From NCBI RefSeq assembly GCF_000372745.1, contig NZ_KB889713.1:1-44907 (forward strand): a stretch of 44,907 bases of DNA, written 5' to 3'. The stretch comes from Embleya scabrispora DSM 41855 (GTDB taxonomy: Bacteria; Actinomycetota; Actinomycetes; Streptomycetales; Streptomycetaceae). The notes under the pieces are model-generated. The model did no database searches. It worked only from the letters and a program-made list of their open reading frames with translations, and was not told the origin of the DNA. Position numbers and translations under genes: made by a program. Positions 29,515-42,703 of the stretch are shown piece after piece. Positions within the stretch are counted from its first letter, which is position 1. Each line of letters starts with the position of its first letter.

Positions 29515-29667
29515 GCGGAGGGGAACCGGAATGGACGAGAAATCGCCCATGGCACCGATCCGATTCCTCCGGCCCGCCGGACCACGCTCCGCCCGGAGCC
29601 CGAGGACGCACTCGACCGGTGAACGCGCCCTGACCTCTACCCAGTGACATCTCGTACGGAGGCAGCA

Positions 29668-30816
29668 ATGCATGCGCATCCTCAGCACGCCCGGGCCTCC
29701 GGGCCCTCGCGGCGGTCCGTACTCCGCGGGGCCGGGGCGGCCGGGCTCCTGCTCGGCGTCGGTGGGCTCACCGCGTGTGATCGTCGGGAATCGACGGCCG
29801 CCGCGCAGGCAGGGCCACCACGGCGCGGTGGGCGGCTGCGCATCGGAATGGTCGGCGCGGGCAAGTCGGAGTCGTTCAATCCCTCCGGGGCGGCGAGCGC
29901 GTTGATCAACGTGGCCCAGGTCACGGCGGTGTTCGACTCGCTCGTGGCGATCGGGCCCGACCTGAGCCTGCGACCCATGCTGGCGCTCTCCTGGTCTTCC
30001 GACGACACGGCGACCACCTGGACGTTCCGGCTGCGGCCCGGCGTTCGGTGGCACGACGGGAAGCCGTTCACGGCCGACGACGTCCTCTACTCGCTGAACT
30101 GGATGTCGGATCCGACCAACCTGCTGTCGGTCGCGGTCGCCAATGTCGACCTGCCGCAGTCGGCCGCTCCCGACCCCGAGACGGTCGTCGTGCGGCTGCT
30201 CCGGCCGGACCTGCTGTTCCCACAGGCGATCGCCGGGACGTGGATCGTGCAAAACCGTGCCACGGACTTCTCCCGTCCGGTGGGCACCGGGCCGTTCGTC
30301 TTCGACTCGCTCATGCCGGGTCAGGTCAGTGTCTGCCGCCGCAACCCGCACTACTGGGACACCGGCAAGCCGTACGTCGACAGCCTCGTCATCCAGTCCA
30401 TCAGCGACGACAACGCACGGGTCAACGCCCTGCTGGGCAGCCAGATCGACGTGGTGGCGCAGATACCGTACGCCCAGGCCAAGGCGTACGACGGAGCCGG
30501 GCTCCGGCTCCTGGACAGTCCGTCCATCGCGGCCCAGGGGTTCTACATGGCCGTCGACCACAAGCCGTTCGACGACGCGCGGGTCCGTCAGGCGATGCGG
30601 CTGCTCGTGGACCGGCAACAGCTGGTCGACGTGGCGCTCTACGGCTACGGCACGGTGGGCAACGACCTCTTCGGCCGAGGGCTGACGTACTACGCCGACG
30701 ACATCCCGCAGCGCAAGCGCAACGTCGCCCAGGCGAAGGCGCTGCTGGCCCAGGCCAGCCACGAGCACGGTCTCACCATCGACCTGGAGACCGCTCCGGC
30801 CGCGCCCGGTGAGTAG
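29668..30816 (+). pseudogene. Peptide/amine-binding lipoprotein (SBP family 5), C-terminus missing
   Basis: The ATG follows GGAGG by 6 bases. It begins with a twin-arginine lipoprotein signal (RRSVLRGAGAAGLLLGVGGL, then TAC). Family 5 motifs are present: FRLRPGVRWHDGKPFTADDV, VGTGPFVFDSL and RRNPHYWDTGKPYVDSL. It is 382 residues long while the family is usually 500-550. Homology stops at DLETAPAAPG, three codons before the TAG, exactly where the oppositely oriented oxidoreductase fragment begins. It belongs with the amine oxidase upstream as a former uptake-and-oxidation pair. Probably non-functional. Confidence 0.8.
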
Positions 30817-31500
30817 GTGCGGGCGACCGGTACGACCAGGATGCCTTCGCCGGCGAGCCGGGCGAACTCGTCCATCCGGTCATAGCGGATCTCGGTGGTG
30901 ATCCGGACGCCCAACTCGGCCGCGGCGGCGAAGTCCGAGACGGTGAGGACACGGTCGGGATCCCCGGTCAGCTCGATCAGGGTCGGTAGCGAGCCGCCGG
31001 CCGGGCTGGGCCGGTCGGCGCGGTCGATCCGCCCCCCGGTCGGCGTCGTGTCCAGGGCGCGGTCGACGCGGCCTTCGGCCCGTGCGCCGACGCGTTCGGC
31101 CATGCCCTCGCCGTAGGCGGTCACCCGGGCGCCGATCTCTTCCAGGGCGGCGGCCCGAGTCGGCCCGGCGGTGGCGATCACCCGAATACCCCGGTGCAGC
31201 GCGAGGCGCACCGCCGCCTCACCCACGGTGGTACCCGCGCCGTGGACGAGCAGCAGCTCACCCGGCCGGACGCCGAGGTCGTCGAGCGCGCGCCACGCCG
31301 TCTCGGCCGCCATCGGCAGCGCGGCGGCCTGCTCGGCGGTGACGCCTTCGGGAATGCGTGCCCAGGCCAGCATCAGCGCGTACTCGGCGGCGCCGGCCGT
31401 CGGGCCGTGGAAGGTGGCCGGGCCGAACACGCGGTCGCCGATCCGGACGCCGGTCACACCCTCACACAGGGCGCGCGCCTCGTCGAGAAGCGCCGAGGAA
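30812..31500 (-). pseudogene. Zinc-less alcohol dehydrogenase/quinone oxidoreductase, both ends missing
   Basis: The core matches NADPH:quinone reductase-like MDR proteins: GVTGVRIGDRVFGPA, PEGVTAEQAAALPMAAETAW, the nucleotide-binding LLVHGAGTTVGEAAVRLAL and IRVIATAGPTRAAALEEIGA, and the end EGILVVPVARTY. The first about 60 residues are replaced by unrelated sequence before ALCEGVTG. The last helix after VARTY is replaced by antisense of the binding-protein gene. Two junctions therefore bound this piece. No start with a ribosome site is present. Confidence 0.75.
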
Positions 31501-31529
31501 TTTTCGGCGGCGAGTACACCGATCCTGGG

Positions 31530-31599
31530 CCTGCGTGCACGCACCGGTCACCAGGACCGCGCTTCCCGCGACGACAACGGCCACGATGCGTCCGGTCAC
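31530..31599 (-). other. Possible lipoprotein signal-peptide fragment
   Basis: A GTG begins VTGRIVAVVVAGSAVLVTGA followed by Cys, resembling a lipoprotein signal with a weak lipobox. The sequence then runs into the oxidoreductase fragment in another frame. If real, it is another truncated gene at the same junction. Confidence 0.25.
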
Positions 31600-32240: not shown

Positions 32241-32345
32241 TTTTTCCTCCGACAGTGGTGAGGATCGAGGACCGGAGCCCTGCCGGGTCACGGTTCGCCA
32301 TCGGACTTCGCCGGCCCGCCGGCCCACCAGGCCCGGCATCAGGGG

Positions 32346-33224
32346 TCAGATCGCTGCCGCGTCCGTGGCGATGAAGTCCCGGACCGCTCGCATGACTTCG
32401 GTGCTCCGTTCGTCGTGCGGATTGTGTCCGGCACGCCCGATGATCTCAAGGCGGGCGTCGGGAATGCCCGCCGCCAACTCGCGTTGACACTCCGGCGGAA
32501 ACACGAAGTCGTCACGCCCCGCCAGAACCAGTGTCGGCACCGTGATCTCGCCGATGCGGTCCATGACCGTCCAGTCCTTGAGCAGGTGGCGACCGGCGAA
32601 GATCAACGCCTCCGGCCGAACCTTCGCGCGCCACCCGCCGCGCAGCATGGTGCCGACCGCCCCCAGGACGGGGTGATGGTTGTACGCGCCCCCAATCCGC
32701 ATGAAGATCCGGAAGTACTCCTCCGGTGCGAAGTCGCCGCTGAACCAGCGCCGAACCAGCTCCACCTTCTCGGTGTCGTAGCCGCGCTCGGCAAGCAGGC
32801 GCGGTGCGTTCTGCCGCGCCCAGCGGCTGTCGCCACCCGTGTCGAGCAGCACGAGGTGTGACAGCCGGTCGGGGTAGCGCAGTGCGTACTCGAGCGCCAC
32901 GTGCCCCCCGAAGGAATGGCCGAGCACGGCCCACCGCTCGAAGCCGAGCGCTTCTCGCAGGGCGTCGGCGTCCGCCGTCAGGTTCTCCCAGGTCATGGAC
33001 GAGACGGGAGCGCCGTACGAACGTCCGTTGCAGCGGTGGTCGTAGAAGACCAGGGTGAACTCCTCCGCGAGCCGCCGGAACGACGCCGGCGTCCAGTGAT
33101 CCGCCGACGGCCCGCCGTGCATGAGCAGCAGTGGATCGCCGTGTCCGACGACGTCGACGCACAGGGACACATCCCGAACCGGCATTATCCCCGGCTTGGC
33201 CCTTCGCGCCCAAGATGGTGTCAT
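32346..33224 (-). CDS. Alpha/beta hydrolase, proline-iminopeptidase-like
   Basis: A 292-residue soluble hydrolase. Seen: oxyanion segment LLLMHGGPSADHW, DHRCNGRS, nucleophile elbow GHSFGG (Ser104), the acid in LAGRDDFVFPP and His in GRAGHNPHDE. HGGP and the DxRGxG-like DHRCNGRS point to the proline iminopeptidase/epoxide hydrolase group; the substrate cannot be fixed. GGGAGG lies about 10 bases before the ATG. It starts 16 bases after the serine hydrolase gene ends, so the two form an operon. Confidence 0.85.
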   Translation of the reverse strand: MTPSWARRAKPGIMPVRDVSLCVDVVGHGDPLLLMHGGPSADHWTPASFRRLAEEFTLVFYDHRCNGRSYGAPVSSMTWENLTADADALREALGFERWAVLGHSFGGHVALEYALRYPDRLSHLVLLDTGGDSRWARQNAPRLLAERGYDTEKVELVRRWFSGDFAPEEYFRIFMRIGGAYNHHPVLGAVGTMLRGGWRAKVRPEALIFAGRHLLKDWTVMDRIGEITVPTLVLAGRDDFVFPPECQRELAAGIPDARLEIIGRAGHNPHDERSTEVMRAVRDFIATDAAAI

Positions 33225-33240
33225 CCGGCATCGTCCTCCC

Positions 33241-34668
33241 TCAGTGATGGCGCCGAGCCCGGAACGACAGCGGCGCGAAGTCGAGGTGGAACGCCGTCAC
33301 GCCGCCACCGGACTCCCGAGTGAAGACGACGCGGCTGGTTCCCCCGATTCCCAGCCGGGAGAGGTCGAGGCGGAAGACGTAGGGATCCTTGTCGTCGTCC
33401 GGGTACAGGGGAAAGCCCCAGGCCAGCGCAGGTATCGGGGTCAACGGTCGCAGGACGAGCCGGCCTCGGCGGACGAGGACCTCCGCCCCTGCGATGAACC
33501 ACTTCTGCACATCACGCAGCGAGCCGGGGAACGAGTACCACCCGCACAGATCGCCCCACACTTCCGGGTGGTGCGGGACATCGGTCCGGACCACGTCGTC
33601 CGGCGCACCGAGGATCTGCCTGAGCAGCTGCGACACCTCGGCCTCGAGCCAGGCCGTGGCGCTCCTCGCCCCGTTGGTGAATGCCACGACACCGACACCG
33701 TCGTGCGGAGCCACCGAGAGCTGGGAGTTGAAGCCGGGCAGCACCCCTTGGTGCGCGACGACGAGATGCCCGTCGATGTCGTGGCGGAAGAACGACAGCC
33801 CGACACCGGGCACGCGTGAATCGGGCTGGTAGTGAGGCGCGAACATGTCCGCCAGAGTGCCGGGTTCGAGCACCGAGCCGAGCTTGCCGGCGCCACCGTC
33901 GAGGAGCGCGGCGACATAGCGTGCCATGTCCCGGGTGGTGGAGTAGGCCGAACCGGCTCCGACCGTCACCAGATCACGGTCGCCGACCGGACGGAGCGCG
34001 CGGGTACGCAATGTGTACCCGGTCGCGAGACGCGGCTCGACGCGATCGGACCGGAGAAGGTCGGTGTCTGCCATGCCCAGCGGCTCGAAGAGGTGCTCGC
34101 GGAGGTAGCGGTCGAGAGGCTGCCCGCTGACGTCCTCGACGATCTGGCCCAGCGTGGCAAACCCGTGATTGCTGTACGTGTGCCGGGTACCCGGCTCTGC
34201 CACCAGACGCAGGCCGCCCCGGTAGAAGTCCGCCGGCGTCGGCAGGGGCTGCCCGTACGTCACGGTCTCGCCCAGGACCGGCGTGAAGACACGCAGGGGG
34301 TACACCATCTCCGGCAGACCGGCCGTGTGGGTCAGCAACTGCCGCACCGTCGCAGGCCGGTGCGTGGCCTTGGCCGGGATCAGTTCATAGGCGCGCAGGT
34401 AGGTGCCGGCGGGCGCGTCGAGGTCCACGAGCCCCTGCTCGCACAGTTGCGTCACGGCGATCGCGGTGAACGTCTTGGTAAGGGAGCCGATCCGGAAGAC
34501 CGTGTCTTCGGTGACGGGGGTCTTCGACACGACATCGGCGAACCCGTGCCCGTGGAACCATTCCAGGGACCCGTGACGCACCACCCCGACCGCCAGACCG
34601 ACGGCGGGATGGCGGTTGAGGAGCTTGCGGATCATGTCTTGAAGCACCGGCCCGTGGACTTCGGTCAC
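33241..34668 (-). CDS. Beta-lactamase-related serine hydrolase
   Basis: A 475-residue protein of the class C beta-lactamase/DD-peptidase/esterase fold. Seen: SxxK as SLTK (Ser62, Lys65), the second motif YSN (Tyr165), and conserved VRQLLTHTAGLPE. The third motif lies in the HQGVLPGFNSQL region. The C-terminal about 110 residues form a beta-rich extension, as in many related esterases or D-aminopeptidases. There is no signal peptide, so it probably acts inside the cell. The GTG start is chosen for AAAGGAG 5 bases upstream; the frame stays open far upstream without protein character. First gene of a two-gene operon with the alpha/beta hydrolase. Confidence 0.88.
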   Translation of the reverse strand: MTEVHGPVLQDMIRKLLNRHPAVGLAVGVVRHGSLEWFHGHGFADVVSKTPVTEDTVFRIGSLTKTFTAIAVTQLCEQGLVDLDAPAGTYLRAYELIPAKATHRPATVRQLLTHTAGLPEMVYPLRVFTPVLGETVTYGQPLPTPADFYRGGLRLVAEPGTRHTYSNHGFATLGQIVEDVSGQPLDRYLREHLFEPLGMADTDLLRSDRVEPRLATGYTLRTRALRPVGDRDLVTVGAGSAYSTTRDMARYVAALLDGGAGKLGSVLEPGTLADMFAPHYQPDSRVPGVGLSFFRHDIDGHLVVAHQGVLPGFNSQLSVAPHDGVGVVAFTNGARSATAWLEAEVSQLLRQILGAPDDVVRTDVPHHPEVWGDLCGWYSFPGSLRDVQKWFIAGAEVLVRRGRLVLRPLTPIPALAWGFPLYPDDDKDPYVFRLDLSRLGIGGTSRVVFTRESGGGVTAFHLDFAPLSFRARRHH

Positions 34669-35013
34669 GACGGCTCCTTTCGCTGCGCCCGACCGGACGG
34701 GCATCGTCTCCGCCGGGCCGGGTCCTTCCGTAACCAACGCTGCTCGGATCCCGGCGGGGGCGAAAGAGCCGAGCGACCTCCCTCGGGGGGCGAACGGCCC
34801 TGGCCGGCCCGGGTCACCGGACGGCTCGGATGAGAGGCCCGACCGCCATCCGGCCGAGCGCAACGCCCGGCCGTCCAAGGAATGTGCATTCGCGTCGTGT
34901 CGCCCAACCGACCGGGAAGCCGCGCGGAACCTGGCGGACACTCTTGCGCGGAAGCACACCGAAACCGGATGCCTCGTCCGCGCGCCTGGATCGACGACGG
35001 GAGAGGCGCCGCC
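34669..35013. other. Intergenic region
   Basis: About 345 bases separating the divergent serine hydrolase operon and the decayed small genes. It should carry the operon promoter. No definite element was recognised. Confidence 0.4.
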
Positions 35014-35165
35014 ATGGCGTACCGCTACTGGTGCGGTGAGCGCGGTTTCAAGACGCCCTGACGCCTTGGGTCCCAGAGGAACAGCAGCAGATCGAGCACT
35101 ACCCCAGGCACCCTGGAGACCCCCGACGGCCAGGTGGAGGCCAACGGGAAGAACCCGAACCGCAC
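35014..35165 (+). pseudogene. Decayed small zinc-ribbon protein
   Basis: An ATG after GGGAGAGG begins MAYRYWCGERGFKTP and then stops. The following DNA still encodes EEQQQIEHYPRHPG and, in another frame, GQVEANGKNPNR. These are recognisable pieces of a common short streptomycete protein that starts with a CGECG zinc pair and has an EHY..RHPG middle. The second Cys of the pair is Arg here, and at least two frame changes are needed. Its former role is unknown. Confidence 0.55.
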
Positions 35166-35379
35166 CGGGCGCGCTCAAGTACAGGGCCCGCCGCGAGAAC
35201 GCGGACACCGTCGCCGGGGAGCCGCGACGTTCCACTTCCTGCCGGCCCCGCGCCCCTGCGCCAGGACGCCGTACTGCGACGCCACGACATCGTCACGGCG
35301 GCCTGACGCCAAGACTCCCGGACCCCGTCTCGGGACCCCGGGCCGTGCACCATCGACCACCTGCCCCAAGGAGGCACGC

Positions 35380-35614
35380 ATGACCGTTCAGACGAAGCAC
35401 CTGGTTGCGCCCGCGCCGCCGGCCGACGAGCAACACGACCTCACCGGCTTCGACTTGGACATCACCCATCGTCCTGGCCGGCCCCGCCGCGGACCAGTTC
35501 ATCGGCGTGTCGGAGCCCATGTGCAACCCGGGCCCCGACGTCGGGCCAGCTCATCCGCCGACGAACCACGGCTGCAACTCCACGTGCGCGACGGCGTGCC
35601 TGGACTGCTCGTAA
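35380..35614 (+). pseudogene. FxLD-type lanthipeptide precursor with one frameshift
   Basis: AAGGAGG precedes an ATG that starts MTVQTKHLVAP, leading to GFDLDIT, the FxLD leader signature. One extra C in the CCC at 35465-35467 breaks the frame. Removing it continues IVLAGPAADQFIGVSEP and a Cys-rich end with NHGCNSTCATACLDCS and a stop. The restored 77-residue precursor has five Cys and several Ser/Thr in the core, ready for lanthionine rings. The end is like that of FxLD-family precursors (GCxSTCxxAC pattern). As written it would make a peptide without the Cys-rich core. The LanB gene starts 85 bases downstream. Confidence 0.7.
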
Positions 35615-35698
35615 GCAGTACGACCGCGTTCATCGCAGTGCCCTGCCGCGCCCGGCCCATGGGCGCGGCAGGGCACCGCGCGGCCACAGGAGCGCCAT

Positions 35699-36225
35699 AT
35701 GTATCGCCACGTTGATGCGGCACTGGTCCGGGCGGCTGCCTGGCACCCCGATTGCCGAACGCTCTGGCCGGATCTCGTCAGCGCGTCCGCGAATACGACG
35801 TCGTGGCGGGCGTGGCTGCAACAGACCGGCAAATCGACGATTTCGCGGTGCCCGTCACGGCAGCCAGTCCGGTCCTGTCGAGCCGAGTGGAGCAGATCTG
35901 CGCTGGCCGGTCGCTACCGACCCCCGCCGTACGGCGCACGATGCTCGCCGTTCTGCGCCATCTGCTGCGCGCCCGTACGCGCGCCACCCCGTTCGGTCTG
36001 TTCGCCGGGGTCGCAGCCACGCGAACAGGCACCACGGCAGCGCTGCGCGTGGGCATCGAGCACCGCCCAAGTGGAACCGCCGACGGGGGACCGCAGCACG
36101 TGCGCGTTCGCGTAACCGCGCCGATCCGCGAAGCTCTGGACCGCGCGCAGACCCCGATCCTGTGGAGCGACCTCGCCGCGACCGCCGTGCCGCCTTGTTT
36201 CGGTCTCGGTGGTCCCGCCAAATTT
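35699..36225 (+). pseudogene. LanB lanthipeptide dehydratase, N-terminal piece with frameshift
   Basis: The ATG begins MYRHVDAALVRAAAWHPD and LWPDL, then SWRAWLQQT. After about 43 codons the frame shifts near 35827; adding one C to ACCGG joins it to RQIDDFAVPVTAASPVLSSR, VRRTMLAVLRHLLRA and the LanB hallmark RATPFGLFAGVA. A later VRVRVTAPIREALDRAQTPI and LWSDLAAT still fit. Homology ends near 36190-36225, where the convergent arginine deiminase gene begins; about 170 of the usual 800-1000 residues remain. LanB glutamylates and dehydrates Ser/Thr of the precursor using glutamyl-tRNA; this piece could not. Confidence 0.75.
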
Positions 36226-37455
36226 TCAGAGGGCGGCTTCGCGTTCGATGGGGCAGCTCATGCAGCGTGGTCCGCCGCGGCCTCGGCCGAGTTCGCTGCC
36301 GCGGATGGTGACGACCTCGATGCCGTTCTTGCGCAAAAATGTGTTGCTGGTGACGTTGCGCTCGTAGGCGAAGACCACGCCGGGCTCGACCGCGAGCACG
36401 TTACACCCGTCGTCCCATTGCTCTCGCTCGGCGGAGCGGACGTCCTGGGTCGCGGTGAGCACGTTGATGCGGTCCAAGCCGAGCGCCCCGGCGATCGCGG
36501 TGTGCATGTCGTCGGCCGGGTGGTCGGTGACCTTGAGTTCCTCGTCGGAGTCGCCCGGTTCGATGGTGTACGAGGGGAGCATGCCCATGCCGGCGTACTT
36601 GGTGAACGTGTCGCCGCTGAGCATGGTCATGACGGTGTCAAGGTGCATGAACGCACGAGCCTTGGGCATCGCCAGGGCGACGACTCTGCGCGCCGAGCCC
36701 TTGGCGAACAACGAGCGGGCCAGGGACTCCACACCCATCGGCGTGGTGCGCTCGCTCATCCCCACCAGGACCGCGCCGTTGCCGATGACCAGGACGTCGC
36801 CGCCCTCCATCGTCGCGGGGTACTCGGACTGGCCGGGGGTCCACACGTTGAAGTCGTCCTTGGCAAATATCGGGTGGTGGTTGTAGATCGCCTCGAAGTG
36901 CACCGTCTCGCGGCGGCGGGCGGACATCCGCATCGCGTTGATGGCGACGCCGTCGTACACCCACGCCGACGTGTCGCGGGTGAACAGGTGGTTGGGCAGC
37001 GGGGTGACGACGAAGTCGTCCGGGCCCATCGTGTGCAACGCGACGCTCTGCGGCTCCCGGATGTACTCCAGCATCTCCCGTTTGGTGATCCCGCCGATCA
37101 GGTGCCGTACCAGCGTCTCCGAGTCGAAGCCCTCGAACAGGGCGCGTAGTTCGTCGACCGCGAGCAGCCCGTACGCACGCTCGTCGAACACTCGCTCCAT
37201 GATCAGCTCCCGGGCGGCCGGTTCGCCGTCGACGGTCTCCCTGAGCAGGTCCGCGAACAAGTGGACGATCACTCCGCGGTCGCGCAGCGCGTCGGCGAAA
37301 GCGTCGTGTTCCTCGCGTGCCCGCTTGACCCACAGGACGTCGTCGAAGAGGAGTTCGTCCTTGTTGGTCGGAGTCAGCCGCTTCAGCTCCAGGTCCGGTC
37401 GGTGCAGGATGACCTGCCTGAGCCGCCCGGTCTCCGACTGCACGTTGAACGCCAT
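36226..37455 (-). CDS. arcA: Arginine deiminase
   Basis: A 409-residue enzyme, the normal length, converting arginine to citrulline and ammonia, first step of the arginine deiminase route that yields ATP without oxygen. Seen: N-terminal [25 protein letters not shown], substrate-binding EGGDVLVIG, the catalytic His in [11 protein letters not shown] and the nucleophile Cys near the end in [17 protein letters not shown] lies 4 bases before the ATG. Ornithine carbamoyltransferase and carbamate kinase are not adjacent, but an APC-type antiporter at the window end may supply arginine. A GGGCCGTTCGGCC palindrome lies about 160 bases upstream. Confidence 0.95.
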
Positions 37456-37613
37456 CGAACCTCCTTGATCGCGCGGGAGTTTCCTACGGATTTCCGCAGT
37501 ACCCGTGCCGTGCGGACCGTCCCGCAGGCATCTGCTCTGATCTTCGCGCCGGAGCCGAATCGCCGAGCAGAGGCACCCGGCCCGCCTCGGTGACCATCCG
37601 GCCCTGCGGATGT

Positions 37614-37627
37614 GGGCCGTTCGGCCT
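37614..37627. promoter_or_regulatory. GGGCCG-TT-CGGCC palindrome between arcA and the stress protein gene
   Basis: GGGCCGTTCGGCCT lies in the divergent region, about 160 bases from the arginine deiminase start and 110 from the stress protein start. A better copy precedes the phosphoketolase gene. The GC-rich dyad with a two-base centre is reminiscent of DosR/DevR-type boxes. A NarL-type receiver of the right class is found, broken, nearby. Confidence 0.55.
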
Positions 37628-37734
37628 GTGCGACGAGGCTCGCCGGCAGCCCCGGCAGGGTCTCGGGGAACAACGGCGGCGAGCACGCACGATCCACGAC
37701 CCACCCCCGTCGGCTCATGACATGCCAGGCGAGG

Positions 37735-38609
37735 ATGAGCGACAGGATCTCCGTCGAACACACCGACGCCGGCCGGCTTGCCGTGGTCCGGGAGGCCGAC
37801 GAGGCGGTGCGCCGCGGGCTGCCCATGCGCCTGATCCACGCGCTCGACTGGCCGGTCGGCGCGGATCGCGACCCCGAAGCCAATCCGCACCGACAGACCC
37901 GGAGCGGACGCTTCCGCGACGCGGGACTGCGCGCCGTGGCCGAGGCGGCCGTCCTGGCCTCGGGCCGGCACGCCGAACCGGCGGCCGACACCGCCCTGTT
38001 CGACGGGGAGCCGACCGCTGTCATGCGCGCGCGGGCGTCCCACGCGGCGATGATCGTCCTGGCTCACGCACGTTGTCGTCGGCGACCGAACTGCTGACCG
38101 CCGGCGGCATCGCGGTACCGGTCACCGCGCACGCTCCCTGCCCCGTCGTGATCGTCCGCGAACCCGAACACGCCACCTCGATCCCGCCCACGGTCGGGCG
38201 TGGACGGCTCGCAGCGCTCGGAGGCCGCCGCGCTTTCGACGAGGCCGCACGGCGCGGCGCGGCGGTCGTCGCCGTGCACGTCCGACAACCGGGCTCGGGC
38301 CTGATGAGCGCCTGGCCAGGCCCGAGGAGATCGAGGAGGGCCGGATTCGGCTCGCCGAGACGCTCACCGGCTGGGCCGAGAGATGCCCTGATGTTCCCGT
38401 GCGTCGCGAGGTGGCGGTCGGACATCCCGTGCGGACATTGGTGAAAGCCGCGGAGCACGCGTTGTGTCCGGGGGTGGGGACGCGGAGGGGTCGGCGGCTT
38501 CCGCAGCATGCTCGTGGGCTCGGTGAGTCGGGGACTGAGCCACCACGCGCGCTGTCCGCTGGTCGTCGTACCCACCGCCGCGGAAACGGATGCCTCGACA
38601 CACGACTGA
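37735..38609 (+). pseudogene. Two-domain universal stress protein with several frameshifts
   Basis: The ATG after GGCGAGG begins [20 protein letters not shown]. Domain 1 shows [20 protein letters not shown] and AAMIVLAHA. Then, in another frame, [19 protein letters not shown] and PVVIVRE complete it. Domain 2 is scattered over frames: VDGSQRSEAAA, FDEAARRGAAVVAVHVRQP, EGRIRLAETLTGWAERCPDV, EVAVGHPVRTLVKAAEHALC and GFRSMLVGSVSRGLSHHARC with PLVVVP. At least five single-base changes are required. Such Usp proteins are often under dormancy/oxygen control in actinobacteria. It is divergent from arcA. Clearly a broken gene unless the sequence is poor here. Confidence 0.75.
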
Positions 38610-38663
38610 CGGCCGGCCACGGCGCCCCTGTAGGGGTATCGACCCCGTGCGGCCCCGTCCCGT

Positions 38664-38679
38664 AGGGCCGTTCGGCCCT
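38664..38679. promoter_or_regulatory. AGGGCCG-TT-CGGCCCT palindrome upstream of the phosphoketolase
   Basis: A 16-base dyad, perfect in both 7-base arms with a TT centre, 71 bases before the phosphoketolase ATG. It is the same motif as at 37614. Its position is right for an activator such as a NarL/DosR-family response regulator. Confidence 0.65.
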
Positions 38680-38749
38680 TCACCCGACATGTGGTCAAGG
38701 ACGAGCGTGGGCACGAGCGGAGCCTGGGCGACAGTCGAGAGGCAGACCG

Positions 38750-40061
38750 ATGACGATGGCGATTCCCGAGGCACCGGACCTGACGATGGTCGATGCCTGG
38801 TGGCGGGCGGCGAACTGTCTCGCGGTGGGGCAGATCTACCTACGGGAGAACCCGTTGCTCGCCGAGCCGCTGCGGCCCGGCCACATCAAGCCGCGGCTGC
38901 TCGGACACTGGGGCACCTCCCCCGGCCTGAACCTGATCTACGCACACCTGAACAGGGTGATCCGCGAACGCGGTACACACGCGCTGCACGTCACCGGCCC
39001 CGGACACGGCGGCCCCTCCGCCCTCGCCGCCTCCTGGCTGGACGGCACCTACAGCGAGCGCCACCCCAACGTCTCCCGGGACGCGGCCGGCATGGCCGCG
39101 CTGTTCCGGCAGTTCTCCTATCCGGGTGGCGTGCCCAGCCACATTGCGCCCGGCGTACCCGGCTCGATCCATGAGGGCGGCGAACTCGGCTACAGCCTCG
39201 CCCACGCCTTCGGCGCCGCCTTCGACAACCCCGGCCTGGTCGTGGCGTGCGTGATCGGCGACGGCGAGGCCGAGACCGGACCGCTCGCCGCGTCCTGGCA
39301 CGGCAACAAGTTCCTCAGCTCCCGCACCGACGGCGCCGTCCTGCCGATCCTGCACCTCAACGGCTGGAAGATCGCCGACCCCACCCTCCTCGCCCGCATG
39401 CCACGCGAAGAACCGGACGCGCTGCTCACCGGATACGGCTGGCGCCCCATCCACGTCGAGGGAGACGAACCCGCCCACGTACACGCCGCGTTCGCCACCG
39501 CGCTGGTGGAAGCCCTCGACGGGATCGCCCACCTGAAGGCGACCGTCCGAACCCGCCCCCGTTGGCCGATGATCGTGTGCGCACCCCCCAGGGCTGGACC
39601 GGCCCGCACACCGTGGACAACGCACCCGTCGAGGGCAGCCGGCGCTCGCACCAAGTCCCGTTGGCTGGGTCCGCGAGAACCCGGAGCACCTGGCCCTCCT
39701 CGATGCGTGGATGCGGTTCTACCGCCCCGACGAACTCTTCGACGCGGACGGGCGGCCCACCCCGATCGTGCTCGCCAACGTGCCCGGCGGCGACACCCGC
39801 CTGGGCGCGGTACCCGAAGCCAACGGCGGCACCCTGCTGCGGGAGTTGCCGCTGCCCGATCCGCACGACTTCGTCGTCAAGGTCACCGAGCCCGGCGCCT
39901 CCTCCTCCGAACCCACCCGAGCCCTGGGCGAATACACACCCGCGATCCGCGCTGAGCCGAACCGGGCCCGCGAAGGAGCACACGGCCGGCCCGGGATCGC
40001 GCCGCCGGGCACTTCGCGGGGCCTTGGAGCCCACCGACCTGAAGGAGAAGCACCACCATGA
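38750..40061 (+). pseudogene. Phosphoketolase, N-terminal half with two frameshifts and missing C-terminus
   Basis: The ATG begins [20 protein letters not shown]. The thiamine diphosphate domain is well kept: [51 protein letters not shown], the metal motif [19 protein letters not shown]. Near 39571 one base is missing before [17 protein letters not shown]; near 39676 one G is missing in a GGG run before [20 protein letters not shown]. The sequence then continues to TRALGEY and stops resembling phosphoketolase, so about half of the usual 790 residues are gone, right up to adhE. It would have split xylulose 5-phosphate into acetyl phosphate and glyceraldehyde 3-phosphate. Confidence 0.85.
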
Positions 40062-42703
40062 GCAGCCGAACCGGCACCGTCCTACCCGTCCCGGACCCGG
40101 GACCGGTCGACATCGACGCCGCAGTGGACTCCCTCGTCTCCGACGCCACCAAGGCACTGGCCGCCTACGAAGCGTTCACCCAGGAGCAGATCGACCACAT
40201 CGTCAAGAAGGCATCCGTTGCCGCTCTGGACCAGCACACTCGGCTGGCCCGCGAGGCGGTGGACGAGACCGGCCGGGGCGTCTTCGAGGACAAGGCGGCG
40301 AAGAACATGTTCGCCTGCGAGTACACCACCGACAGCATGCGCGACCTCAAGACGGTCGGCATCGTGGCCCGGGACGAGATCGCGGGCATGGTCGAGGTCG
40401 CCGAGCCCGTAGGAGTCGTGTGCGCGGTCACTCCGGTGACCAACCCCACGGCCACCGTGATCTTCAAGGCGTTGATCGCCCTCAAGACCCGCAATCCGAT
40501 CGTCTTCGCCTTCCACCCTTCGGCCCAGCGGTGCAGCGCCTCGGCGGCACGGGTGGTGCGCGACGCGGCCGTGGCCGCCGGGGCGCCCGAGCACTGTGTG
40601 CAGTGGATCGAGGACCCCTCGATCGAGGCGACCACCGCGCTGATGCGTCAACCCGGCGTCGCGTTGATCCTGGCGACCGGCGGGGAGGGCATGGTCAAGG
40701 CAGCCTATTCGGCGGGCAAGCCGGCCCTGGGCGTGGGTGCCGGCAACGTGCCCGCCTACATCGACCGCGACGCGGATCTACGTCGCGCGGTCAACGACGT
40801 CGTGTTGTCCAAGTCGTTCGACAACGGCATGATCTGCGCCTCCGAGCAGGCCGTCGTGCTGCACACCGACATCCACGACGCGGCCCTGTCCGAATTCGGC
40901 GCCCTGGGCGCCCACTTGGCGACCGACGAAGAGAAACGCAAGCTGGAGACCTACCTCTTCGGCGCGAGCACGACCCGGGTCAATCCCGCGGCAGTGGGGC
41001 AAAGCCCGGCCTGGATCGCCGCCCAAGCGGGATTCACCGTGCCCCCGAACACCACCGTGATCCTGGCCCACGCCGACCGGGTCGGCCCGCCGGAACCCCT
41101 GACCCGCGAGAAGTTGTGCCCGGTCCTGGCCCTCCTGCGCGCCGACTCGCGCGAACACGGCTTCGCGCTCGCCGCCGACATGGTCGCCTTCCACGGCATG
41201 GGACACAGCGCCGTCATCCACACGAGTGATCCCGCCGTGGCCGAGGACTACGGGCGGCGCATGAAGACGGCCCGCATCATCGTCAACGCGCCCTCGTCCC
41301 AGGGAGCCATCGGCGGTATCTACACGGGTCTGTTGCCCTCGCTGACGCTGGGTTGTGGATCCTGGGGCGGCACCTCGACATCCAACAACGTCTCCGCCGT
41401 CAACCTGTTGAACGTGAAACGGGTGAGCACCCGCCGCAACAACATGCAGTGGTTCAAGATCCCGCCCAAGATCTACTTCGAACCGCACGCGATCCGCTAT
41501 CTGGCCGAGATGCCGCATGTGCATCGGGTGACCATCGTCACCGACACGACCATGACACGCCTGGGCTACGTCGACCGGATCCGCCGGGTGCTGCACTCGC
41601 GTGAACTCCCGGTGACGATACAGATCATCGACGACGTGCTGCCCGAGCCGAGCATCGACTCGGTACGGCGCGGCGCGGACCTGATGCGGACCTTCCGCCC
41701 GGACACCATCGTCGCCCTGGGCGGCGGCTCCCCCATGGACGCCGCCAAGGTCATGTGGCTGCTGTACGAACAGCCGAACGTCGACTTCTCCGACATGCGG
41801 CAGAAGTTCCTCGACATCCGCAAGCGCGCCTTCCGCTTCCCCGTCCCGGGCAAGCAGGCTCGACTCGTATGCGTGCCGACCACGTCCGGTACCGGCGCCG
41901 AGGTCACCCCGTTCGCCGTGATCACCGACTCGGTGACCGGCAAGAAGTACCCACTGGCCGACTACGCCCTCACCCCGAGCGTGGCCATCGTGGACCCGCT
42001 GCTGGCCGCGGAACTCCCGCCCGCCCTGGCCGCCGACAGCGGCATGGACACCCTCACCCACGCGATCGAGGCGTACGTCTCCATCTACGCCAACGACTTC
42101 ACCGACGGCCTCGCCCTGCACGCCATCCGGCTCGTCTTCGACAACCTCGAACGCGCGGTCAACGACCGGCAGGCCAACCCCGAGGCGCGCGAGAAGATGC
42201 ACAACGCCGGCACCATCGCGGGCATGGCCTTCGGCAACGCCTTCCTCGGCATCGTCCACGCCATGTCCCACACCCTCGGCGCCACGTTCCACGTGGCCCA
42301 CGGCCGCACCAACGCCGTCCTACTGCCGCACGTCATCCGCTACAACGGCAGCGCGCCCGGCAAGCTCGCCGGCTGGCCCAAGTACGAGCACTATCGGGCG
42401 CCCGAACGCTTCGCGGACATCGCCCGAACTCTCGGCCTTCCCGCCGGGACCCCGGCCGAAGGAGTGCGGTCCTTGGCCACCGCGGTCGAGCAACTCAGGG
42501 AACGCGTCGGCATCGAGCCGTCGTTCCAGGCCCTGGGCATCGACGAGAAGGCGTTCCAGGCCGCACTGCCCCGCCAAGCGCTCAACGCCTACGAGGACCA
42601 ATGCGCCCCGGCGAACCCGCGCATGGCGATGCTCGACGACATGATCGCCATCATGCGCGACGCCTACTACGGCACGGTACCGGTGTCGGCCCCTGCGTCT
42701 TGA
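40058..42703 (+). CDS. adhE: Bifunctional acetaldehyde-CoA/alcohol dehydrogenase
   Basis: An intact 881-residue fermentation enzyme reducing acetyl-CoA to acetaldehyde and then ethanol, regenerating NAD+. N-terminal aldehyde domain (about 20-450): VCAVTPVTNPTATVIFKAL, KPALGVGAGNVPAYID and catalytic Cys260 in NGMICASEQ. The C-terminal iron alcohol dehydrogenase domain (about 465-875) has GGGSPMDAAKVMW, CVPTTSGTGAEVTPFAVI, and iron ligands in DSGMDTLTHAIEAY and HAMSHTLGATFHVAHG. AAGGAG lies 9 bases before the ATG. It directly follows the phosphoketolase remnant, probably sharing its promoter. A strong hairpin follows 44 bases after the stop. No frameshift in 2.6 kb. Confidence 0.96.
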   Translation: MSSRTGTVLPVPDPGPVDIDAAVDSLVSDATKALAAYEAFTQEQIDHIVKKASVAALDQHTRLAREAVDETGRGVFEDKAAKNMFACEYTTDSMRDLKTVGIVARDEIAGMVEVAEPVGVVCAVTPVTNPTATVIFKALIALKTRNPIVFAFHPSAQRCSASAARVVRDAAVAAGAPEHCVQWIEDPSIEATTALMRQPGVALILATGGEGMVKAAYSAGKPALGVGAGNVPAYIDRDADLRRAVNDVVLSKSFDNGMICASEQAVVLHTDIHDAALSEFGALGAHLATDEEKRKLETYLFGASTTRVNPAAVGQSPAWIAAQAGFTVPPNTTVILAHADRVGPPEPLTREKLCPVLALLRADSREHGFALAADMVAFHGMGHSAVIHTSDPAVAEDYGRRMKTARIIVNAPSSQGAIGGIYTGLLPSLTLGCGSWGGTSTSNNVSAVNLLNVKRVSTRRNNMQWFKIPPKIYFEPHAIRYLAEMPHVHRVTIVTDTTMTRLGYVDRIRRVLHSRELPVTIQIIDDVLPEPSIDSVRRGADLMRTFRPDTIVALGGGSPMDAAKVMWLLYEQPNVDFSDMRQKFLDIRKRAFRFPVPGKQARLVCVPTTSGTGAEVTPFAVITDSVTGKKYPLADYALTPSVAIVDPLLAAELPPALAADSGMDTLTHAIEAYVSIYANDFTDGLALHAIRLVFDNLERAVNDRQANPEAREKMHNAGTIAGMAFGNAFLGIVHAMSHTLGATFHVAHGRTNAVLLPHVIRYNGSAPGKLAGWPKYEHYRAPERFADIARTLGLPAGTPAEGVRSLATAVEQLRERVGIEPSFQALGIDEKAFQAALPRQALNAYEDQCAPANPRMAMLDDMIAIMRDAYYGTVPVSAPAS

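Follow-up and report, generated by a model that had tools for sequence, protein, structure and literature searches.

A pseudogene cluster of the FxLD lanthipeptide family in Embleya scabrispora DSM 41855

FxLD is named as a characterised lanthipeptide recognition motif in PMC12710340. In class I lanthipeptide loci, the conserved Asp of the TXDGC core motif is given as the target of PIMT-like methyltransferases in PMC13001092 and PMC7268733. According to these three papers, LanB should recognise the FxLD leader motif in working relatives of the locus described here. Ser and Thr would be dehydrated by LanB and the rings closed by LanC, and the PIMT-like methyltransferase would act last, on the core Asp. 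The FxLD lanthipeptide kind is common, ordinary and already known. The FxLD precursor family TIGR04363 matched at E ≤ 0.01 in at least 146 of 394 same-family genomes and scored over its cut-off in at least 134, counts that may be lower bounds as 18 candidates were scored per genome. The 146 include two of the three other genomes of the genus.

The stretch of DNA analysed here (the window) is the entire contig C152 of E. scabrispora DSM 41855, 44,907 bp in length, from a draft genome of 11.39 Mb in 190 contigs. The gene order at the relic, 5′ to 3′, is methyltransferase tail, precursor, hairpin and lanB piece. The window was aligned with nine loci that have open precursors, giving ten sequences, and the DNA alignment was continuous and co-linear from the leader region to position ∼36181. 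By blastn, locus L047 of the same-family genome G026 was 79% identical to the window across 870 aligned positions. A preliminary description had read the region as a relic of an FxLD lanthipeptide locus, which is borne out by the alignment with the nine open-precursor loci and by the Pfam match of the LanB piece. Comparison with intact FxLD loci as DNA showed continuous homology, with up to 156 of 180 aligned precursor bases identical to open precursors.

We conclude with high confidence that 35380–36181 and the tail upstream of it make up a decayed, once functional FxLD lanthipeptide operon. The locus is a cluster of pseudogenes from a known family, and the gene set looks dead. Decay is indicated by gene order and homology together with frame breaks, internal losses, truncation and the change of the core Asp to His; in addition, the assembly contains no FxLD methyltransferase over the cut-off elsewhere. 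The ancestral operon would have had the order methyltransferase-precursor-hairpin-lanB-(lanC), and its product would have been a peptide bearing thioether rings and a modified Asp. It was presumably active in an ancestor, probably with lanC included, and would yield no product now.

The FxLD precursor relic lies at 35380..35614 on the plus strand, as judged from the reading frames, a partial profile match and the DNA alignment. GGAGG at 35370..35374 (+), the probable ribosome-binding site of the precursor, is identical in all ten aligned sequences. The leader frame from the ATG at 35380 translates to MTVQTKHLVAPAPPADEQHDLTGFDLDIT (MTVQ...TGFDLDIT), in which the FDLD motif is aligned with the open leaders. 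Past position ∼35465 the family sequence runs on in the next frame, ending GCNSTCATACLDCS with a stop codon at 35612–35614; the precursor of L047 reads MTVQMEPPVAPAQPTAEQQDLTGFDLDITIVEGGPAADQLIRLTDDGCNSTCATACVSCP. The core frame contains the Cys pattern of the FxLD core, CNSTCATACLDC, aligned with the relatives. Leader and core are not in one open frame, being separated by a single-base frame break near 35465.

The break had been attributed to one extra C. A single-base break is indeed visible in the alignment, but the precursor also carries an extra 51-bp segment at 35507..35557 (+), which is missing from all nine aligned precursors. The suggestion that the precursor differs merely by a possible sequencing error is not supported, as this insertion is present too. 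All five Cys residues of the core noted earlier are real, but the fifth sits inside the 51-bp segment, and the family core retains four. By eye, the segment is partly like a second, diverged copy of the preceding stretch. A repeat search (minimum 12 bases, seed 7) found no duplicate pair that explains it.

Leader and core pieces of the precursor were searched separately against TIGR04363. The core piece matched with E = 0.0017 and 18.3 bits, short of the cut-off of 30 bits, and no match was obtained for the leader piece; similarity to FxLD precursors is present in the profile test but stays below the cut-off of the model. The precursors of two relatives scored 59.6 and 60.9 bits, the latter being that of L047. 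When the whole genome of DSM 41855 was searched at E ≤ 10, the relic ranked first among the 10 places listed, with E = 0.108 and 16.8 bits, barely above the second (16.2 bits), and no TIGR04363 match was obtained at E ≤ 0.01. Since the precursor profile alone is insufficient, the claim of ancestry rests on the DNA alignment and LanB.

Pattern matching in the retrieved loci yielded 85 precursors, whose tails comprise 83 different sequences. In 79 of these tails the residue two positions ahead of the first core Cys is Asp, and one of the four non-Asp tails appears to be a spurious frame. The window has His at this position. The Asp expected to be the methyltransferase target is His here, a putative functional residue that has been lost. 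The spacing from the F of the leader motif to the first core Cys is ∼41 codons in the window, versus 23–27 residues in 82 of the 83 distinct tails.

Directly upstream of the precursor, DNA alignment revealed the 3′ tail of an FxLD-system (PIMT-like) methyltransferase gene at 35179..35306 (+). This relic spans ∼40 codons of the 3′ end (∼130 bp), is frame-broken and has ∼97 bp missing inside. The methyltransferase gene tail of locus L076 scored 110 bits against the window, versus a maximum of 27.4 bits when the window stretch was triplet-shuffled 200 times, and it matched in two blastn pieces offset by 97 bp. A longer L076 piece including the spacer to the precursor scored 148 bits. The upstream protein of L076 scored 540.3 bits on TIGR04364 (cut-off 320) and is thus an FxLD-system methyltransferase. 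The 46-aa window piece of the relic matched no NCBIfam family. The tail region aligned in all six relatives submitted to the blastn comparison. In another relative, L079, the alignment stops short of the upstream methyltransferase region, indicating that the gene order is not universal. The earlier statement that no FxLD methyltransferase is adjacent was therefore wrong in detail. DNA alignment can expose an adjacent partner gene too decayed for the eye or for a fragment profile search.

A relic of a small Cys-rich gene is located at 35014..35170 (+), where MAYRYWCGERGFKTP is followed by a stop and a shifted frame. It was recognised from the frames and from a 75% DNA match of 34992–35180 to a same-genus genome, whose locus L041 reads through without a stop. 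The gene bears a YRYWCG motif. It is not known to belong to the lanthipeptide unit; that this neighbour is also broken was counted in favour of decay.

The N-terminal relic of LanB (lantibiotic dehydratase) is located at 35699..36181 (+), as supported by a PF04738 match, the DNA alignment and blastn. The piece 35752–36223 matched PF04738 with E = 4.9e-21 (75 bits, cut-off 28), and its best named matches are from Streptomyces. The start at 35699 is aligned with the lanB starts (ATG or GTG) of the relatives. One missing base plus truncation had been proposed for this gene. A single-base frame break near 35825 is visible in the alignment and blastn homology to lanB ends at ∼36181, mid-contig, but an internal loss of 141 bp at ∼36054/36055 had been overlooked. 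Because of this loss, the match between the window piece and several LanBs of other genomes is split in two, as in G026 (75% and 80%).

An arginine deiminase open frame at 36226..38067 on the minus strand (PF02274, E = 2.3e-118) is a neighbour outside the lanthipeptide unit. Its stop codon, 36226–36228, is ∼45 bp past the end of LanB homology, and the two genes are convergent. The Pfam match starts at residue 237 of 613, and a paralogue with 82% DNA identity is present on contig C124. Arginine deiminase, phosphoketolase pieces and an AdhE-like aldehyde-alcohol dehydrogenase are clustered at 36226–42703, an apparent low-oxygen metabolism group. The phosphoketolase gene at 38750–40060 looks broken as well: XFP_N positions 7–282 are in one frame, and a second piece in another frame covers positions 323–363 with 23.0 bits, just under the cut-off of 23.7. 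Elsewhere in the window, at 29644–31544, a solute-binding protein frame covers just positions 2–282 of 368 of SBP_bac_5, and an overlapping frame on the opposite strand has a zinc-dehydrogenase match below cut-off.

It is very improbable that the locus is intact and only looks broken because of errors in sequencing or assembly. The assembly is a draft of 190 contigs, two of the frame breaks are single-base, and such breaks alone could be errors. However, the losses of 141 and ∼97 bp and the gain of 51 bp are not single-base sequencing errors. LanB homology stops mid-contig, ∼45 bp short of the arginine deiminase stop, and this assembly also has the LanB and LanC of contig C180 as long open frames.

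For the decayed operon, relaxed selection was assessed by private changes, that is, sites at which the window differs while the eight other loci are identical; each intact locus was compared in the same way with the seven other intact ones. L078 was excluded from the counts because its contig begins just upstream of the precursor. The window had 13 private changes of 102 in the precursor versus 1/103 to 9/111 in intact loci, a raised count that is partly dependent on the base alignment around the 51-bp segment. In LanB the window had 19/211 versus 7/318 to 45/356 in the others, so that the relic is not separable from divergent intact members. Intergenic counts showed no difference (4/46 in the window, 1/47 to 8/54 in the others). 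The fraction of LanB changes at codon positions 1 and 2, calculated with the three nearest relatives only, was 0.53 in the window and 0.73, 0.33 and 0.49 in the others. The upstream part of L079 gave 70 private changes of 128, inflated by the absent methyltransferase homology.

A GC-rich hairpin at 35634..35680 (+), with arms at 35634–35653 and 35661–35680 that are 95% complementary, lies between the precursor and lanB. A strong GC-rich hairpin soon 3′ of the precursor stop was seen in many of the FxLD loci whose folds were viewed. When the window was folded to a consensus with ten relatives, the hairpin came out at the same position, individual pairs being broken or gapped in no more than three of the 11 sequences. 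Some sequence was changed on both sides in 6 of the 29 predicted pairs, and the covariation term was only −0.15 kcal/mol. At columns 36 and 64 the window has a U-A pair, nine relatives have G-C and one has a gap; this one double substitution may be older than the decay. The hairpin is possibly an attenuator between precursor and lanB in FxLD loci. It is very improbable that it was retained for an RNA function, such as that of a terminator towards the convergent arginine deiminase gene, amid the decay of the protein genes.

The preliminary description had allowed that the peptide could still be matured by enzymes elsewhere in the genome. The precursor alone would then remain in use, its five-Cys peptide being processed by a LanB and LanC from another locus. 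The conserved GGAGG site and hairpin are still good, and C180 holds another LanB, whose adjacent precursor has an FDLD leader motif. This LanB, with 554.1 bits, is the one other PF04738 match in the genome, and it adjoins a LanC-type frame and an SCO0268-type precursor (TIGR04451, 42.3 bits, cut-off 40). Continued use of the precursor is contradicted by the different frames of leader and core, the 51-bp segment that shifts the core away from the leader, the loss of the Asp and the membership of the C180 precursor in another family (TIGR04451), and it has even less chance of being correct than the error explanation. The genome search for partners did yield a LanB and a LanC-type frame, both on C180, but no place for an FxLD methyltransferase over the cut-off of 320, the best match being 235.8–235.9 bits on C123. 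The C123 match was rejected as an FxLD partner: it is below cut-off and covers model positions 1–251 of 394, and the frames beside it look like NADH dehydrogenase, not a lanthipeptide locus. A LanC-like search of the genome gave seven places, none of them on C152, in agreement with the earlier remark that no cyclase is adjacent. With LanB ending at ∼36181, a full LanB and LanC are absent at the locus. Because the other LanB neighbours a precursor of the SCO0268 type and nothing in the genome exceeds the FxLD methyltransferase cut-off, rescue by enzymes elsewhere in the genome would be unlikely. That part of the preliminary description is not supported, the more so as the core Asp has become His.

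Chance resemblance without lanthipeptide ancestry, which could appeal to a profile score of the core piece that is weak and barely above other places in the genome, is already refuted by the 870 positions aligned with L047 at 79% and by the PF04738 match of E = 4.9e-21, and its probability is negligible.

The decayed operon is a single example of the loss of a peptide pathway that is abundant in actinomycetes; remnants of three genes keep their order. The relic opens no new biology. At the same site in the three other same-genus genomes (32300–38100 of the window), matches were limited to arginine deiminase and short stretches, with no working version. A PADLOC search of two window frames returned nothing. 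Among the titles and abstract beginnings listed for decayed lanthipeptide genes in Streptomyces, none concerned such a relic, and we claim no priority.

Among the systems that can be compared with the window, the SCO0268-type locus on C180 (L026:5820–10726) contains a precursor with FDLD in its leader, a LanB and a LanC. Unlike the window, the C180 locus has open precursor, LanB and LanC-type frames and a TIGR04451 precursor, and none of the 24 listed methyltransferase matches is on C180. The OlvA system of S. olivaceus, with the methyltransferase OlvSA, has the same gene kinds according to the descriptions in PMC7268733 and PMC13001092. In the relatives of the window, the Asp of the TXDGC motif named in PMC13001092 is present. 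In contrast to the OlvA system, taken here by description from the same two sources, the window is a relic with the Asp codon changed.

L047 is the nearest relative found by DNA, sharing 425 of 502 aligned bases in LanB and 156 of 180 in the precursor. Unlike the window, it has a precursor of 60.9 bits on TIGR04363 and a LanB in an open 995-aa frame. L076, from Streptomyces odonnellii NRRL B-24891, shares the order methyltransferase-precursor-lanB with the window; GGAGG, hairpin and start codons are aligned, and 151 of 180 precursor bases are identical. The frame after lanB in L076 has weak LanC-type matches (best E = 9e-10, below cut-offs). Methyltransferase, precursor and lanB are all open frames in L076, whereas the three counterparts in the window are broken or truncated.
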